38,064 nt of DNA from Oscillatoriales cyanobacterium CG2_30_44_21 (GTDB lineage: Bacteria; Cyanobacteriota; Cyanobacteriia; Pseudanabaenales; Pseudanabaenaceae): the NCBI GenBank assembly GCA_001873375.1, contig MNZA01000242.1, forward strand, positions 1 through 38,064. Direction: 5' to 3'. The notes beneath the pieces were generated by a model. It worked only from the letters and a program-made list of their open reading frames with translations, ran no database searches and had not been told where the DNA came from. Positions 2,305-34,663 of this stretch are shown here, in pieces (position 1 is the first letter of the stretch; the number at the start of each line of letters is the position of its first letter). The position numbers and the translations under genes were made by a program.

Positions 2305-2349
2305 GTTTTCAAGCAAAGAAATGGCGCAGCCATTTCTTTGCTTGAAAAC
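2305..2349. repeat. Palindrome, 21-bp arms, loop gca (AAATGGC subfamily)
   Basis: gttttcaagcaaagaaatggc-gca-gccatttctttgcttgaaaac. Confidence 0.95.
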
Positions 2350-2396
2350 CCAGAGATTGTTCCGCCCGCGTAGCGGGCGGAACAATCTCTGGGTTT
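2346..2396. repeat. Palindrome, 24-bp arms, loop gta (CCGCCCGC subfamily)
   Basis: aaacccagagattgttccgcccgc-gta-gcgggcggaacaatctctgggttt. Confidence 0.95.
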
Positions 2397-2434
2397 AGCT
2401 ATTTCCAACGCCTTGGGCGTTGGAAATAGCTAAA
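2394..2434. repeat. Palindrome, 19-bp arms, loop ttg
   Basis: tttagctatttccaacgcc-ttg-ggcgttggaaatagctaaa. Confidence 0.95.
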
Positions 2435-3606: not shown

Positions 3607-3628
3607 AAAGCAGTTAAGCACAAGCAAA

Positions 3629-3653
3629 GTTCCGCCCGCTACGCGGGCGGAAC
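3629..3653. repeat. Palindrome, 11-bp arms, loop tac (bare CCGCCCGC core)
   Basis: gttccgcccgc-tac-gcgggcggaac. Confidence 0.9.
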
Positions 3654-3690
3654 AATTACACCGAGCTACTTAGTTGAAAGCGTTTCTTAG

Positions 3691-4362: not shown

Positions 4363-4397
4363 TTAGCAATGGCGCGGCGCAGCCGCGCCATTGCTAA
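4363..4397. repeat. Palindrome, 16-bp arms, loop gca, 1 nt after aat stop
   Basis: ttagcaatggcgcggc-gca-gccgcgccattgctaa. Confidence 0.92.
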
Positions 4398-4428
4398 ATA
4401 GATAAATGGCGTAGCCATTTATCTATTT
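4396..4428. repeat. Palindrome, 15-bp arms, loop gta; contains murG stop codon
   Basis: aaatagataaatggc-gta-gccatttatctattt; shares 2 bp with previous palindrome. Confidence 0.92.
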
Positions 4429-5540
4429 GAAAACCCAGCGATCAAGCTGACAATTTGGGCGATCGCCTTTGTATCTTGGCTTTGTTGCATATTCTGAATA
4501 AATTCATCACGCCGCGTGTCTAAGTCTGCGATCGCGGCGAGCAAACTCTCACTGGTTAAATTTTCTTCAAGCAGCACAGCACTATATCCCCGCGCTGCAA
4601 AAGACTGAGCATTGAGGATCTGATCCCCGCGACTTGAGGCTTTGGAGAGAGGGATTAACAAATTTGGCTTGCGGAGTGTCAGAAACTCAAAAACAGCATT
4701 AGCGCCCGATCTCGAAACCACTAGATCGGCGATCGCCAAAATATCGGCTAGTTCTTTACCCAAATATTCAAACTGCCGATAGTGGGGATGTCCACTGAGG
4801 CTGTCGTCCAGATTGCCTTTACCGCAAGCATGAACCACCTGATATTTAGTCGTAATCTTATCTAAATTTGTCCGAATTGCCTGATTAATCTTTGCCGAGC
4901 CAGTACTGCCGCCCACCACAAATAAAACTGGTAAATCCGCCGTAAACCCGCACAATTCTCGCCCTCGACTTGCCACACCCTCCAAAATTTCAGGACGGAT
5001 TGGCAAACCTGTATGGATTACTTTGGCAGCATATTTGGCTAAGTTCTTAACTGTTTCGGGAAAGGTAACACAAACTTTATTGGCAAAAGGAATCGATAAA
5101 CGGTTCGCCAGCCCCGAAGAAAAGTCTGATTCATGGATAATCATCGGCACTCGATGCAACCAACTCGCCAAAATCACAGGCACAGTCACAAACCCGCCTT
5201 TAGAAAATACAACTTGGGGTTTGATCTTGGCGATCGCGAAATAAGCATCAAATACACCCTTAATCACCTTAAACGGATCGATAAAGTTCTCCCAAGAAAA
5301 GTAACGGCGCAACTTTCCCGATGAGATTCCGTAATAGGAGAGTCCAACTTCAGCGACTAATTTCTTTTCAATTCCATTTTTAGAACCGATGTAAACAATC
5401 TCCCATCCATCCGCTTCCAAACTAGGTAATAGGGCAATATTTGGACTAACATGACCCGCAGTCCCCCCACCCGTCAAGACAATCTTGGGCTTGGTTGCAT
5501 TTAATTTTGACTGAACGCTATTTTTCCTAATTGCTGCCAC
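4419..5540 (-). CDS. murG: UDP-N-acetylglucosamine--N-acetylmuramyl-(pentapeptide) pyrophosphoryl-undecaprenol N-acetylglucosamine transferase
   Basis: LTGGGTAGHVSPNIAL, HESDFSSGLANRL, VVGGSTGSAKIN, VSRSGANAVFEFLTLRKPNLLIPL motifs. Confidence 0.93.
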   Translation of the reverse strand: MAAIRKNSVQSKLNATKPKIVLTGGGTAGHVSPNIALLPSLEADGWEIVYIGSKNGIEKKLVAEVGLSYYGISSGKLRRYFSWENFIDPFKVIKGVFDAYFAIAKIKPQVVFSKGGFVTVPVILASWLHRVPMIIHESDFSSGLANRLSIPFANKVCVTFPETVKNLAKYAAKVIHTGLPIRPEILEGVASRGRELCGFTADLPVLFVVGGSTGSAKINQAIRTNLDKITTKYQVVHACGKGNLDDSLSGHPHYRQFEYLGKELADILAIADLVVSRSGANAVFEFLTLRKPNLLIPLSKASSRGDQILNAQSFAARGYSAVLLEENLTSESLLAAIADLDTRRDEFIQNMQQSQDTKAIAQIVSLIAGFSNR

Positions 5541-5592
5541 AAATTATTTTCTCTAAATAAATTTTTTTGGAAGTAAGTAGCTGGAAACTAGA

Positions 5593-5625
5593 GTTTGTTC
5601 CGCCCGCGTAGCGGGCGGAACAAAC
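5593..5625. repeat. Palindrome, 15-bp arms, loop gta
   Basis: gtttgttccgcccgc-gta-gcgggcggaacaaac. Confidence 0.92.
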
Positions 5626-5716
5626 CTTTTTCGCGGCATCATCATTCATCGCTTTCTTAGTTAAGCTTTGATATTGTAGAACTTTGCAAGTAAAGTAGAC
5701 ACATCCAAAATTAGTT

Positions 5717-6583: not shown

Positions 6584-6593
6584 CGCGGCTAAC

Positions 6594-6642
6594 CCAAAAA
6601 ACACTGATTCGCCCGCTTCGCGGGCGAATCAGTGTTTTTTGG
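6594..6642. terminator. Palindrome, 23-bp arms, loop ttc, between convergent genes; candidate bidirectional terminator
   Basis: ccaaaaaacactgattcgcccgc-ttc-gcgggcgaatcagtgttttttgg; T/A runs in outer arms. Confidence 0.8.
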
Positions 6643-6649
6643 TTTGGCA

Positions 6650-11064: not shown

Positions 11065-11110
11065 ATAGCAAGTAAAGAAATGGCTACGCCATTTCTTTAC
11101 TTGCTATAAC
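11062..11110. repeat. Palindrome, 23-bp arms, loop tac (AAATGGC subfamily)
   Basis: gttatagcaagtaaagaaatggc-tac-gccatttctttacttgctataac; shares 3 bp with previous palindrome. Confidence 0.95.
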
Positions 11111-14313: not shown

Positions 14314-14364
14314 CAAGAATAATTTTGAAAGCGCTGCGAAGCAATGCTTTCAAAATTATTCTTG
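14314..14364. repeat. Imperfect palindrome, loop gaa; paralogue of 15915-15971
   Basis: caagaataattttgaaagcgctgc-gaa-gcaatgctttcaaaattattcttg. Confidence 0.88.
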
Positions 14365-14580
14365 GTTCGAGTTTGAGCGCAAAGCACTGTAAAGAGTAAA
14401 CTAGCAATCTACAATAGAAAAACCAATATACGCCAAATTAGCAAAGCGTAGCTGTAGTCCATTGCCTTAGAACAAGTCAAAAAAACTGAGTGGTGCTTTG
14501 CGCCGCCACTAGTATTTGGGCTTTATGTGCTAACAAAACTAACGCCAGCTATAGGTAGCTAGGCACACTAAAAACCAAAA

Positions 14581-14615
14581 AGGTCGTGCCGCCCATGTAG
14601 CGGGCGGCACGACCT
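14581..14615. repeat. Palindrome, 14-bp arms, core altered (CCGCCC subfamily)
   Basis: aggtcgtgccgccc-atgtagc-gggcggcacgacct. Confidence 0.88.
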
Positions 14616-14677
14616 AGGGCTTTTAGTTTATGCCTAGATGCGATCACCTTTGCCATCTAAGTGCGATTAATTTAATC

Positions 14678-15850
14678 ATGCTCAACCCAGATCCCAACTC
14701 GATTCAACTTACTCAAGACGATTACGAACGCTATTCGCGTCACCTGATTTTGCCTGAGGTTGGTGTAGATGGACAAAAGCGACTCAAAGCCGCAAGCGTA
14801 CTGTGTATCGGTACGGGAGGCTTAGGTTCGCCTTTGTTGTTATATCTCGCCGCCGCAGGTGTGGGACGCATCGGTATTGTTGACTTTGATGTAGTCGATA
14901 CATCCAATCTTCAGCGTCAAGTCATCCACAGCACTAGCTCGGTCGGTACACCCAAGATCGAATCCGCTAAGGCAAGGATCTTGGAAATCAATCCCTATTG
15001 CCAGATTGACCTCTATAACACCCACCTGTCTTCGACCAATGCTCTCGAAATCGTGGCTCCCTACGATATCGTTGTCGATGGCACGGATAATTTCCCCACC
15101 CGCTACCTAGTCAATGATGCTTGCGTGTTGCTAGACAAGCCCAATGTCTATGGTTCGATTTTCCGATTTGAAGGACAGGCGACGGTCTTTAACTATGAAG
15201 GTGGTCCCAATTATCGCGATCTCTATCCAGAGCCACCACCTCCAGGGCTAGTTCCTTCCTGCGCTGAGGGCGGCGTACTGGGGATTTTGCCAGGAATTAT
15301 TGGCGTGATCCAAGCAACGGAGACGGTCAAGATTATCCTTGGTCAAGGAAATACGCTAAGTGGTCGCTTATTACTTTACGATGCCTTAAAAATGACTTTC
15401 CGCGAACTGAAGCTTCGCCCTAACCCAGTCCGTCCTGTCATCGAGCAATTGATTGACTATCAAATGTTCTGCGGTATCACTCAACAAAAACAAACTGAAA
15501 TGGAAACGCAACAATCAATTCCTGAAATGACGGTTACGGAACTCAAAGAGATCATTGATGCGGGTGCGTCAGATTATGTAATCGTCGATGTCCGAAATCC
15601 TAATGAATGGGAAATTGGCAAAATTCCCAATACGGTTCTTGTGCCATTGCCAGACATTGAGAATGGTAATGGTGTGGATAAGGTCAAGTCTCTGCTTGGA
15701 GATAAGAAGTTAATTGTCCATTGCAAGATGGGTGGGCGATCGCTGAAGGCGCTGGGCATTTTAAAGCAAGCGGGCGTTGACGGGATCAATGTTCAAGGCG
15801 GCATTAATGCATGGAGCGATCTGGTCGATCCAACGGTTCCCAAATATTAA
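14678..15850 (+). CDS. moeB: MoeB/ThiF-type sulfur-carrier adenylyltransferase with C-terminal rhodanese domain
   Basis: ERYSRHLILPEVGVDGQKRLKAASVLCIGTGGLGSPLLLYLAAAGVG; DGTDNFPTRYLVNDAC; C-terminal VIVDVRNPNEWEIGKIP...VHCKMGGRS. Start set at MLNPDPN inside ORF 14630..15850. Confidence 0.92.
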   Translation: MLNPDPNSIQLTQDDYERYSRHLILPEVGVDGQKRLKAASVLCIGTGGLGSPLLLYLAAAGVGRIGIVDFDVVDTSNLQRQVIHSTSSVGTPKIESAKARILEINPYCQIDLYNTHLSSTNALEIVAPYDIVVDGTDNFPTRYLVNDACVLLDKPNVYGSIFRFEGQATVFNYEGGPNYRDLYPEPPPPGLVPSCAEGGVLGILPGIIGVIQATETVKIILGQGNTLSGRLLLYDALKMTFRELKLRPNPVRPVIEQLIDYQMFCGITQQKQTEMETQQSIPEMTVTELKEIIDAGASDYVIVDVRNPNEWEIGKIPNTVLVPLPDIENGNGVDKVKSLLGDKKLIVHCKMGGRSLKALGILKQAGVDGINVQGGINAWSDLVDPTVPKY

Positions 15851-15854
15851 AACC

Positions 15855-15893
15855 AAAAGTTGTTCCGCCCGCGTAGCGGGCGGAACAACTTTT
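15855..15893. terminator. Palindrome, 18-bp arms, loop gta, followed by T-rich tract after moeB
   Basis: aaaagttgttccgcccgc-gta-gcgggcggaacaactttt then tcggtttt. Confidence 0.8.
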
Positions 15894-15914
15894 TCGGTTT
15901 TGCTGATACTAAAG

Positions 15915-15971
15915 AACCAAGAATAATTTTGAGAGCGTTGCGAAGCAACGCTCTCAAAATTATTCTTGGTT
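15915..15971. repeat. Palindrome, perfect 27-bp arms, loop gaa
   Basis: aaccaagaataattttgagagcgttgc-gaa-gcaacgctctcaaaattattcttggtt. Confidence 0.95.
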
Positions 15972-15986
15972 TGGGTTTTGTAATCG

Positions 15987-17237: not shown

Positions 17238-17344
17238 TGGGATTGCTAAGTTTTAACACCATAACTGCTAATTGCATCTTAACAGTTAGCGCTTAGTTTC
17301 GTATTTACCGTGCTTTGCGCCGATTCTGGTTTTAAGTAACTAAA

Positions 17345-17389
17345 CCCAAAGGTTGTTCCGCCCGCTATGCGGGCGGAACAACCTTTGGG
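17345..17389. repeat. Palindrome, 21-bp arms, loop tat (CCGCCCGC subfamily)
   Basis: cccaaaggttgttccgcccgc-tat-gcgggcggaacaacctttggg. Confidence 0.95.
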
Positions 17390-17426
17390 GTTTTAATTAA
17401 GCCTAGCTAATTACTTAAAAAATATT

Positions 17427-24901: not shown

Positions 24902-24987
24902 AATCTATTAAAAATCTTAAATGTACAGATTTAAGTTTAGCTAATAATGCTCCCAATAAGATCGCTTTTTGATGGGTTGTGATTTAG

Positions 24988-25027
24988 GCGATCGCGGTTT
25001 GTTGAGATTGAGTTGAGGCGCGATCGC
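24988..25027 (+). repeat. HIP1-bounded 40-bp repeat, copy 1
   Basis: gcgatcgcggtttgttgagattgagttgaggcgcgatcgc. Confidence 0.92.
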
Positions 25028-25162
25028 GACTTTTTAGTTGGTATGATGACATAAAGATAACGACCGTCTATCGGAGATAATCTCAAAATAACAAAATCAA
25101 CTTTATACGCAACAGCTAAAGTCTTAGCAGGTAATAAAATTGAAATTCAATCTGCAAATTTT

Positions 25163-25390
25163 TTGGTAGGACAAACCGTTGAAGTTATTATTCTAGTTCC
25201 AGAAGTTCCCTCTAATTTACCTGTCGACGAAGAACAAAATTTGACTTTAGAACAACGCCTTGATTTTCTCAAATTACCGATCGCTGAACGTAGACAGATA
25301 CTTGAAAGTCAAGCTGAGGAAATGATTACCCACTATCAACAAGAAACTGATTGGAAGGAATTAATGGCAGGTGACATCGTTGACTATTAA
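25163..25390 (+). CDS. Probable antitoxin partner of downstream MazF
   Basis: Overlaps MazF start by 20 nt; PIAERRQILESQAEEMITHYQQETDWKELMAGDIVDY tail is typical of cyanobacterial small antitoxins. Coding similarity seems to extend upstream in frame to an ATA codon at 25088. Confidence 0.6.
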   Translation: MVGQTVEVIILVPEVPSNLPVDEEQNLTLEQRLDFLKLPIAERRQILESQAEEMITHYQQETDWKELMAGDIVDY

Positions 25391-25745
25391 TCCTGAAACA
25401 CCCAAGCGTGGAGAAATTTGGCTCGTTAACTTTGATCCTACAGGTGGCTCTGAAATCAAAGAAATTCGTCCTGCAATTATCATTAGCTCAGATGCAGCAG
25501 GAAAATTACCGATTAAACTCGTTGCACCAATTACTGATTGGAAGCCATATTTTGCTAACAACTTTTGGCACGTTAAAATCGAGCCAAACACAGAAATTGG
25601 ACTTACAAAGGCTTCTGCAATTGACGCTCTTCAGCTTAGGGGTATGGACTTGCAGAGATTTATTCGCAAACTTGGCAATATATCCGATGCTAAGATGACA
25701 GAAATAGCGGCTGCTATTCTCACTATTATTGAATATGAAATTTAG
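25371..25745 (+). CDS. MazF/PemK-type endoribonuclease toxin
   Basis: PKRGEIWLVNFDPTGGSEIKEIRPAIIISSDAAGKLPIKLVAPIT; ...TKASAIDALQLRGMDLQRFIRKLGNIS. Confidence 0.92.
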   Translation: MTSLTINPETPKRGEIWLVNFDPTGGSEIKEIRPAIIISSDAAGKLPIKLVAPITDWKPYFANNFWHVKIEPNTEIGLTKASAIDALQLRGMDLQRFIRKLGNISDAKMTEIAAAILTIIEYEI

Positions 25746-25755
25746 CAACGTTATA

Positions 25756-25795
25756 GCGATCGCAGTTTGTTGAGATTGAGTTGAGGGGCGATCGC
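25756..25795 (+). repeat. HIP1-bounded 40-bp repeat, copy 2
   Basis: gcgatcgcagtttgttgagattgagttgaggggcgatcgc. Confidence 0.95.
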
Positions 25796-26251
25796 TTATT
25801 CCCAAAAATCAATATTTACAATTGAGTTAATATCTCGACCTAACTCCCATTCGTTAGGGAAATTAAAACCTTTTGACTGATATTCTTTACGAGTATGCTT
25901 TAAAGCAAATCGCCAAGCATCACTAAAATGTCCATCCCAATAGCTTTTGAGACTGGGATAATTATTCAGTAATACCTCAATTTGTAAACGTTGCTCTCGG
26001 ATTGTATTTTCCCACCCATTAAAGCAGTCAGGCATATTCACATACATCCGTTTGAGTAAATGTGCAAGCAAAGTTGCAAGACGGCTTTCTAATTCCTTCC
26101 TTTGCGATCGCCCCAAGTCCTCAATCTCCTCTACCAAATTTTCAATATCTAGATGCTCAAAATCTCCAGCCTTCAACTGAGTTATCGTCTCTTGAATCCA
26201 AAGTAGATAGTCAGATTCATATAAGGATTTTCTGGCAATTGTCTGAGTCAT
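25796..26251 (-). CDS. DUF29 family protein
   Basis: LYESDYLLWIQETITQLKAGDFEHLDIENLVEEIEDLGRSQRKELESRLATLLAHLLK, canonical DUF29 motif. Confidence 0.93.
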   Translation of the reverse strand: MTQTIARKSLYESDYLLWIQETITQLKAGDFEHLDIENLVEEIEDLGRSQRKELESRLATLLAHLLKRMYVNMPDCFNGWENTIREQRLQIEVLLNNYPSLKSYWDGHFSDAWRFALKHTRKEYQSKGFNFPNEWELGRDINSIVNIDFWE

Positions 26252-26310
26252 TGATTTGTAACTCCTGTGGCAAACCCAACAGTATCATTATCGTGCATAA
26301 AACAATTATA

Positions 26311-26349
26311 GTGATCGCAGTTATTGAGATTGAGTGGAGAGGCGATCGC
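26311..26349 (+). repeat. HIP1-bounded repeat, copy 3 (diverged, 39 bp)
   Basis: gtgatcgcagttattgagattgagtggagaggcgatcgc. Confidence 0.88.
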
Positions 26350-26351
26350 AC

Positions 26352-26618
26352 TTACTCGTAATGAGTCCATATTCTGATTATCTTAACGGTTTTCTCTGAC
26401 TCAATTACCTCATAAACAAGGCGGTGTTGGACATCAATTCTGCGTGAATATGCATCTGAAAAATCTCCAACCAGCTTTTCATAGGGTGGTGGGTTCTGAA
26501 ACGGATTGATTTGAATTACGGACAAAAGCTCAGCAACTTTTCCTTTTAGATTACTTGCAGCTATTTTCTTCGCATCTTTTTGAGATTGCTTGATGTATAC
26601 TAACTTCCACATCACCAT
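26352..26618 (-). CDS. Txe/YoeB family toxin
   Basis: WKLVYIKQSQKDAKKIAASNLKGKVAELLSVIQINPFQNPPPYEKLVGDFSDAYSRRIDVQHRLVYEV. Confidence 0.9.
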   Translation of the reverse strand: MVMWKLVYIKQSQKDAKKIAASNLKGKVAELLSVIQINPFQNPPPYEKLVGDFSDAYSRRIDVQHRLVYEVIESEKTVKIIRIWTHYE

Positions 26619-26938
26619 TCTAATGTCTCGCTACAATCATGAATAGAAGTTGACAAACCTTCAACTATTGATTCACGCATTTTAGGGATTGAGAGTAAAT
26701 ATATTGTTTCTTGAATACCGCGCCATGCATCTTCAGAAATTAAAACAGCGTTAGAATTGATGTCTGAAACTTTTATATCACTCATTTTGACTTGTTGACG
26801 CTGTTTGAGAAATATGCAAAAGTTAAGAACTTCCTCAACCAGTGAGTCAGGCGCTTGTTCGAGTTCTTTGCTAAGTTTGTCTCTAACCGTCATTTGGCTA
26901 TCCAAAAATTTCGATATTAATTTAGTAATGGCGCTCAA
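26612..26938 (-). CDS. Antitoxin with DUF2281-like N-terminus and YefM/Phd-like C-terminus
   Basis: N-terminus DKLSKELEQAPDSLVEEVLNFCIFLKQRQ (DUF2281-like); C-terminus NAVLISEDAWRGIQETIYLLSIPKMRESIVEGL (YefM-like); 7-bp overlap with YoeB ORF. Confidence 0.75.
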   Translation of the reverse strand: MSAITKLISKFLDSQMTVRDKLSKELEQAPDSLVEEVLNFCIFLKQRQQVKMSDIKVSDINSNAVLISEDAWRGIQETIYLLSIPKMRESIVEGLSTSIHDCSETLEW

Positions 26939-27006
26939 AGCGAGAAGTTTCTCTCGATAACTATACCTATTTTAGTTAAGAAAAATACAAAATATAGGTA
27001 TTTGAG

Positions 27007-27046
27007 GCGATCGCAGTTTGTTGAGATTGAGTTGAGGGGCGATCGC
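27007..27046 (+). repeat. HIP1-bounded 40-bp repeat, copy 4 (identical to copy 2)
   Basis: gcgatcgcagtttgttgagattgagttgaggggcgatcgc. Confidence 0.95.
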
Positions 27047-29134: not shown

Positions 29135-29195
29135 GAACCCAGAAAAGAATTTGAAAGTTTGGCGAAGCCAAACTTTCAAATTCTTTTCTGGGTTC
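29135..29195. repeat. Palindrome, perfect 29-bp arms, loop gaa (longest in window)
   Basis: gaacccagaaaagaatttgaaagtttggc-gaa-gccaaactttcaaattcttttctgggttc. Confidence 0.95.
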
Positions 29196-29249
29196 ACTTG
29201 ATTAGCAATTTTTGTTCTGCCCGAATAGCGAACGAAACAAACTCTGGGT

Positions 29250-34288: not shown

Positions 34289-34462
34289 TCAAAATTTTCT
34301 CTGGATTTTAAGTCGCGATCGCCCATGACTTAAAACCCAATCGACAGCATCCGCAATATCCTGCTCACTCCAATCCAAACCAACAAGCTTAGAACGTACT
34401 GCTTCAGCACAGTGGATTCTTACAGGAATCCAAAAGCGCTGTATAAATAAGTAGATCAACAT
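34289..34462 (-). CDS. Hypothetical protein, convergent with smc
   Basis: MLIYLFIQRFWIPVRIHCAEAVRSKLVGLDWSEQDIADAVDWVLSHGRSRLKIQRKF; the longer ORF start (34543) would read through palindrome 34474-34524, so an internal Met is preferred. Confidence 0.35.
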   Translation of the reverse strand: MLIYLFIQRFWIPVRIHCAEAVRSKLVGLDWSEQDIADAVDWVLSHGRSRLKIQRKF

Positions 34463-34473
34463 AATTAAAACCC

Positions 34474-34524
34474 AAAACCAGAAGTTGTTCCGACCGCCAT
34501 GCGGTCGGAACAACTTCTGGTTTT
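34474..34524. repeat. Palindrome, 24-bp arms, loop cat (compensated CCGACCGC variant)
   Basis: aaaaccagaagttgttccgaccgc-cat-gcggtcggaacaacttctggtttt. Confidence 0.95.
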
Positions 34525-34597
34525 TTAGGTTATACCAATTCACAAAAGTGTGACTACAATTTTGTGAATTGAAAACTAAACCCAGTATGGTTTTTAG

Positions 34598-34628
34598 AAT
34601 AAAGAAATGGCTACGCCATTTCTTTATT
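34598..34628. repeat. Palindrome, 14-bp arms, loop tac (AAATGGC subfamily), upstream of cobK
   Basis: aataaagaaatggc-tac-gccatttctttatt. Confidence 0.92.
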
Positions 34629-34663
34629 TGGTATTACTTAGTAAGTATTTTGACGCACTCACC

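Follow-up and report, generated by a model that had tools for sequence, protein, structure and literature searches.

The perfect palindrome at positions 34474-34524 of the window (the whole stretch of 38,064 nucleotides from Oscillatoriales cyanobacterium CG2_30_44_21 that we analysed) forms the centre of a miniature transposable element, about 104 nt long, that is restricted to Pseudanabaena. We consider it likely that the arms of this non-autonomous element, which has the ends TAAGTAGCT and AGCTACTTA and inserts at TA, are kept matched at the level of the DNA by template switching or by an equivalent flipping of the hairpin. Since hairpins flip their loops and copy their arms, matched changes can arise in them without selection on an RNA fold.

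The palindrome at 34474-34524 and its element

The palindrome reads AAAACCAGAAGTTGTTCCGACCGC-CAT-GCGGTCGGAACAACTTCTGGTTTT; its 24 perfect pairs enclose a 3-nt loop (24-3-24), and its RNA folding z-score is -11.55. The earlier note had described a C-to-A change in one arm of this copy that is matched by G-to-T in the other. Comparison with the family core bears this out: the matched exchange is the sole difference between the two and yields a compensated C:G to A:T pair at 34493/34505. The change, at pair 5, reflects one event and is present in this copy alone among 109 distinct copies. The copy is eroded, with the left end of the element kept at 34448 and the right end gone, and the TA at 34448-34449 is consistent with a TA target duplication. 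The features at this locus are:

34448..34473, plus strand: left end of the miniature element, TAAGTAGATCAACATAATTAAAACCC, with one mismatch to the family end TAAGTAGCTC (by-eye alignment to full-length copies of genome G300)
34474..34524, no strand: perfect palindrome with 24-nt arms, CAT loop and the compensated pair 34493/34505 (sequence, RNA folding z-score)
34525..34534, plus strand: what is left of the right part; the terminal repeat AGCTACTTA on this side is absent, and another repeat (ACCAATTCACAAAAGTG...) comes next

A search with the family core at up to three mismatches gave seven matches (none expected from shuffles), and nine related palindromes are present in the window. Those away from the smc locus, none with an assigned strand, are:

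2345..2398: further copy of this palindrome, with a GTA loop (family D1)
3615..3674: copy with a TAC loop and one eroded arm; right end AGCTACTTA retained at 3664-3672
5574..5636: copy, loop GTA; left end TAAGTAGCT retained at 5574-5582
6592..6645: related palindrome GATTCGCCCGC-TTC-GCGGGCGAATC, which may belong to another palindrome family of the window's genome
14233..14286: copy, loop GTA, inner register broken (TTCCCGCCCGC)
14572..14625: copy with a matched T-to-G / A-to-C change; CCCAT faces GCGGG, so that the two innermost pairs are broken
15848..15901: copy, loop GTA
17341..17394: copy, loop TAT

The matched T-to-G and A-to-C changes that had likewise been reported at 14581-14615 are present in the sequence; the same copy also has the left arm CCCAT instead of CCCGC, which breaks the two innermost pairs and which the earlier note omitted.

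Further repeats accompany these copies in the window. A second palindrome family (AAATGGC-TAC/GTA-GCCATTT), with outer arms that are variable but complementary, occurs at 2310-2344, 4396-4437, 11069-11103 and 34600-34630; the copy at 34600 includes the ATG (34607) of the open reading frame called as cbiJ, whose true start is probably the ATG at 34663. Members of a third family (CAAGAATAATTTTGAAAGC... with a GAA/TTC loop), widespread in the genus, lie at 14314-14374, 15918-15978 and 29140-29200. The region 24983-27046, low in GC and with few long open reading frames, contains four direct repeats of about 45 nt that are bounded by HIP1 (GCGATCGC...GTTTGTTGAGATTGAGTTGAGG...GCGATCGC).

The extent of the element was read from G300, a member of the genus whose genome is a single contig. 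When its copies are aligned outward from the loop, conservation drops sharply about 51 nt away, and the ends TAAGTAGCT...AGCTACTTA have a spacing of 104 in 111 of 153 facing pairs. The G300 stretches contain 65 full copies; full copies read TAAGTAGCTCAACTTAATTAAAACC...GGTTTTTAGTTTACTTATGTCTAGCTACTTA, are preceded by T (98%) and followed by A (100%), and have random flanks beyond. At all four loci for which a related empty site was found, one duplicated TA fits the junctions, while joins without duplication or with TAA fit none. The sharp ends, the conserved T and A flanks and the TA duplicated at four sites therefore identify a miniature element that inserts at TA. G299, a second member of the genus, shares most copies with G300; three differences between them touch core copies or ends, and none of these is a clean insertion. 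One filled site in genome G312 is empty in a related segment of G300. A small contig of G312 (L057, contig C74) carries a full element whose flanks nearly match both a filled G300 site (L186) and an empty one in L177, for which transfer, contamination or a repeated segment are possible reasons.

Insertion into palindromic targets was considered as a general rule and discarded, as just two of 138 cases conform, one of them an assembly fold-back (L011). At two loci (L170:17768 and L098:9935) the element is inserted at the loop TA of another repeat's palindrome (TTTTCAAATGAG-TA-CACACTCATTTGAAAAC), which gives nested hairpins.

The window's genome (3.5 Mb in 272 contigs) holds about 176 core copies within three mismatches. 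Five of 44 sampled copies were found to be full length, one of which is an assembly artefact; since so few are complete, the family looks older and eroded in this genome. Within the genus, 23 of 26 genomes are positive, with one to about 120 copies each. Among 294 genomes sampled across the phylum, those with the pattern belong to the genus itself or to one further genus, in which the pattern takes a variant form, at one site by the per-strand count and with two loci listed. A cyanobacterium outside the genus (genome G014, loci L031 and L033) has a similar palindrome, TGCCGCCCGC-GCA-GCGGGCGGCA, in two copies, which could be a relative or of independent origin. Among named records, matches are confined to plasmids of Pseudanabaena galeata CCNP1313 and Pseudanabaena sp. 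ABRG5-3, on which basis we assume the genus to be Pseudanabaena; the phage collection yielded no match.

We also looked for the enzyme that moves the element. An IS630-type parent was rejected after inspection of 30 DDE_3 (PF13358) loci from four genomes, none of which has TAAGTAGC at both ends, and a non-exhaustive search of the DNA fetched recognised no longer element that combines these ends with a transposase. The autonomous partner may be extinct. Mobilisation as a REP by a RAYT was discarded as well, since PF01797 has no match in the window's genome and the control was found in Escherichia coli.

Covariation among the copies and the RNA fold

The covariation set comprises 109 distinct 35-nt copies. 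Across it, 96.3% of the cells pair, and 13 of the 16 pairs have changed on both sides. The covariation score is 0.390, compared with 0.116 for shuffled sets (0 of 500) and at most 0.085 when the partner position is slid. In the tree-based control, 64 co-changes fall on the same branch, 53 of them from one Watson-Crick pair to another, against a null mean of 5.8 (maximum 14 in 2000) and four to six with slid partners. Arm forms that differ yet remain complementary (GTACC, GTCCC, GCACC, GTGCC) occur elsewhere in the genus.

The earlier note had taken the matched changes as a sign that the fold itself is preserved, a reading that would have lost its basis had no excess of covarying pairs survived the phylogeny of the copies. 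The excess is present (64 against 5.8 expected). As the covariation is genuine and withstands the control for phylogeny, complementarity is preserved; selection on the fold as the main cause is unsupported, given the loop inversions, the rate of double changes, the lack of a G-U excess and a gene context unlike that of terminators.

If the stem worked as a structured RNA, in the main as a rho-independent (bidirectional) terminator or a stabiliser of mRNA 3' ends, selection on transcript pairing would have fixed the matched changes. The locus in the window fits such a role: the palindrome sits between the co-directional smc homologue and cbiJ, is followed by a T run on both strands and scores as a terminator on both. 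The copy could thus act as a terminator by position, and selection for the hairpin may operate at such particular sites, but this would be a use of the element and not the cause of covariation throughout the family. Across the family, copies lie between tandem (45), convergent (26) and divergent (31) genes, close to the 53, 19 and 28% expected from intergenic bases (chi-square about 4, p about 0.14 by our own arithmetic), so that no terminator-like enrichment is seen. Selection at the RNA level also predicts that G-U mismatches outnumber A-C mismatches on the sense strand; with 28 against 23 there is no such signal. A search of Rfam gave no match at the gathering score, and neither the loop inversions, which selection for pairing is unable to create, nor the near-instant double changes described below are predicted by pairing of a transcript. 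Palindromes of the genus outside the core family show a strong excess between convergent genes (142 convergent, 227 tandem and 53 divergent, against 19, 53 and 28% of intergenic bases), and they are probably genuine terminators. Taken together, we regard RNA-level selection as an unlikely explanation for the matched changes in the core family.

Directly after the smc stop codon, most members of the genus carry a long perfect palindrome, and the palindromes found there belong to families that differ by species (L067-L092), as if a terminator slot after smc were repeatedly refilled; this counts in favour of the terminator reading. At one of these loci (L069, genome G296), downstream of smc, an adjoining open frame that starts MRIIHTSDWHLGRK resembles, by eye, an SbcD-like hairpin nuclease subunit.

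Loop inversion and matched arm changes in G299 and G300

G299, a draft assembly, and G300 were aligned over 740 kb, in which they differ by 0.50% substitutions. Of 342 informative palindromes (stem score of at least 12, loop of 3-8), 108 have an inverted centre in one genome relative to the other, and 81 of these show no other change; ten of the 81 exact inversions amount to a one-base difference and are possibly point changes, while most loop inversions would need three simultaneous point changes. About a third of the palindromes are inverted in most stem-length classes, and each of the common loops is affected (GTA/TAC 28 of 86, GAA/TTC 26 of 63, TAA/TTA 10 of 26, AAA/TTT 10 of 22), irrespective of the sequence of the arms. 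Other palindrome families invert as much as the core family, and stem mismatches near the loop move together with the inverted loop. The 723 kb outside the called palindromes contain only nine changes of this kind, and weaker palindromes account for several of these. A two-state model gives about 0.5 inversions per palindrome, compared with 0.005 substitutions per site, and thus an inversion rate about 100 times the per-site substitution rate. Inversions are also seen between three further pairs of genomes (G304/G308, G301/G294 and G311/G302). These measurements come from G299 and G300 and not from the window's genome, whose closest relative in the set is about 90% identical at smc. The relatives of the third palindrome family (CAAGAATAATTTTGAAAGC) in G299 and G300 likewise flip their loops.

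Differences that coincide with palindromes might reflect errors of assembly. G299 and the window's genome are drafts whose contigs often end at these repeats, and one locus of the window's genome (L011; genome G000, contig C46, 22000-24080) is a fold-back chimera, with a palindrome of 567-nt perfect arms that runs to the contig end. Ambiguity at the level of k-mers or of the assembly is nevertheless unlikely to have produced the inversions, because inversion is equally frequent (17 of 57) for perfect stems of 12-15 nt, which are resolved by flanks that lie within one k-mer, and because the single-contig G300 alone has both orientations (GTA 26 and TAC 27 among 61 oriented elements), including in elements identical at every other base. 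Ambiguity in the assembly graph cannot, moreover, give changes in the arms. We therefore judge artefacts to be a most improbable source of these differences.

The arms changed in a concerted manner as well. Among 6550 arm pairs compared, 85 single changes and 15 compensatory doubles were found; about 0.09 doubles would be expected if single changes were independent, and the observed rate is about 160 times as high. As evidence these doubles are few; some lie in diverged loci, and six of the 15 are in otherwise unchanged palindromes.

Ectopic gene conversion between dispersed copies would replace both arms at once and would thereby create compensatory pairs. The roughly 176 copies in the window's genome are possible donors, and for two of the six clean doubles (L109/L178 and L130/L190) copies with the same arms exist elsewhere in the sample. 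For the other four, no second copy of the arms exists in the 1.4 Mb of sampled sequence. A loop flip alters neither the flanks nor the arms, and conversion cannot explain the inversions because single-copy palindromes invert too (10 of 43). Conversion consequently appears quite improbable to us as the general cause, though a shade less so than an assembly artefact.

A probable DNA-level route and its significance

The reading that we favour places the upkeep of the hairpin, once the element has inserted, at the level of the DNA. During replication the nascent strand (or the hairpin template) would briefly switch to the opposite arm. A switch across the loop would leave the centre inverted (GTA to TAC or the reverse), and one across a mismatched pair would rewrite one arm to match the other, so that a point mutation in one arm would sometimes be reverted and sometimes be copied across, giving a compensatory pair such as that at 34493/34505. 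Loop inversion and compensatory change are described as footprints of template switching (PMC8794818). Our inference is that such switching supplies the molecular route and also produced the change in the copy at 34474-34524.

The resemblance to template-switch mutation and quasipalindrome correction (PMC8794818, and studies of E. coli that it and PMC7202029 cite) includes loop inversion with intact arms and homogenisation of the arms; multi-base compensatory change and independence of sequence are shared too (PMC8794818). The two differ in scale: the rRNA study lists 69 cases of 'loop inversion only' in a very large data set (PMC8794818), whereas in Pseudanabaena about a third of the palindromes are inverted between genomes 0.5% apart.

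With MITEs that duplicate TA (IS630/Tc1-mariner type, among them the cyanobacterial Nezha, as cited in PMC10969869 and PMC3733652) the element shares a length of about 100 nt, the lack of coding capacity, terminal inverted repeats, a short target duplication, mainly intergenic dispersal and a high copy number. It differs from them in having only 9-nt terminal repeats together with a long internal hairpin, in that no transposase with the same ends was found and in its confinement to one genus in the sample; the comparison with Nezha is one of architecture. Short extragenic palindromes in high copy number with complementary stem variation are likewise described for REP/REPIN sequences with RAYT (PMC3733652, PMC3116915), including the GTAG-tagged cyanobacterial REPs. 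In contrast to these, the Pseudanabaena element has a long stem and TA-bounded ends instead of a GTAG/CGTC end tag, and the window's genome has no Y1/RAYT gene.

It is a tentative idea, to which we give somewhat less than even credence, that short hairpins in Pseudanabaena flip genome-wide at no less than 100 times the per-site substitution rate, so quickly that both orientations may coexist within one culture. A lineage-specific lack of hairpin processing (an ExoI-type nuclease was not found) or a dedicated structure-dependent activity would then make every palindrome self-correcting, and covariation would be no proof of RNA structure there. In the family search of three genomes, ExoVII was present whereas ExoI was absent, which gives at most a hint here.

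The template-switch mechanism is already known; what surprises is how fast it seems to act genome-wide. Compensatory change is standard evidence for a conserved RNA structure, but in this one genus strong covariation that withstands correction for phylogeny is seen in hundreds of palindromes and is explained by flipping and arm copying at the DNA level; the loop inversions serve as an internal marker of the flipping process. To this the genus adds a miniature transposon of its own, whose copies disperse such hairpins. Pseudanabaena thus offers a natural and countable system to test the extent to which hairpins are built and maintained by template switching, an issue that work on rRNA had brought up (PMC8794818), and it carries a warning that structured RNAs in palindrome-rich genomes should not be called from covariation alone.
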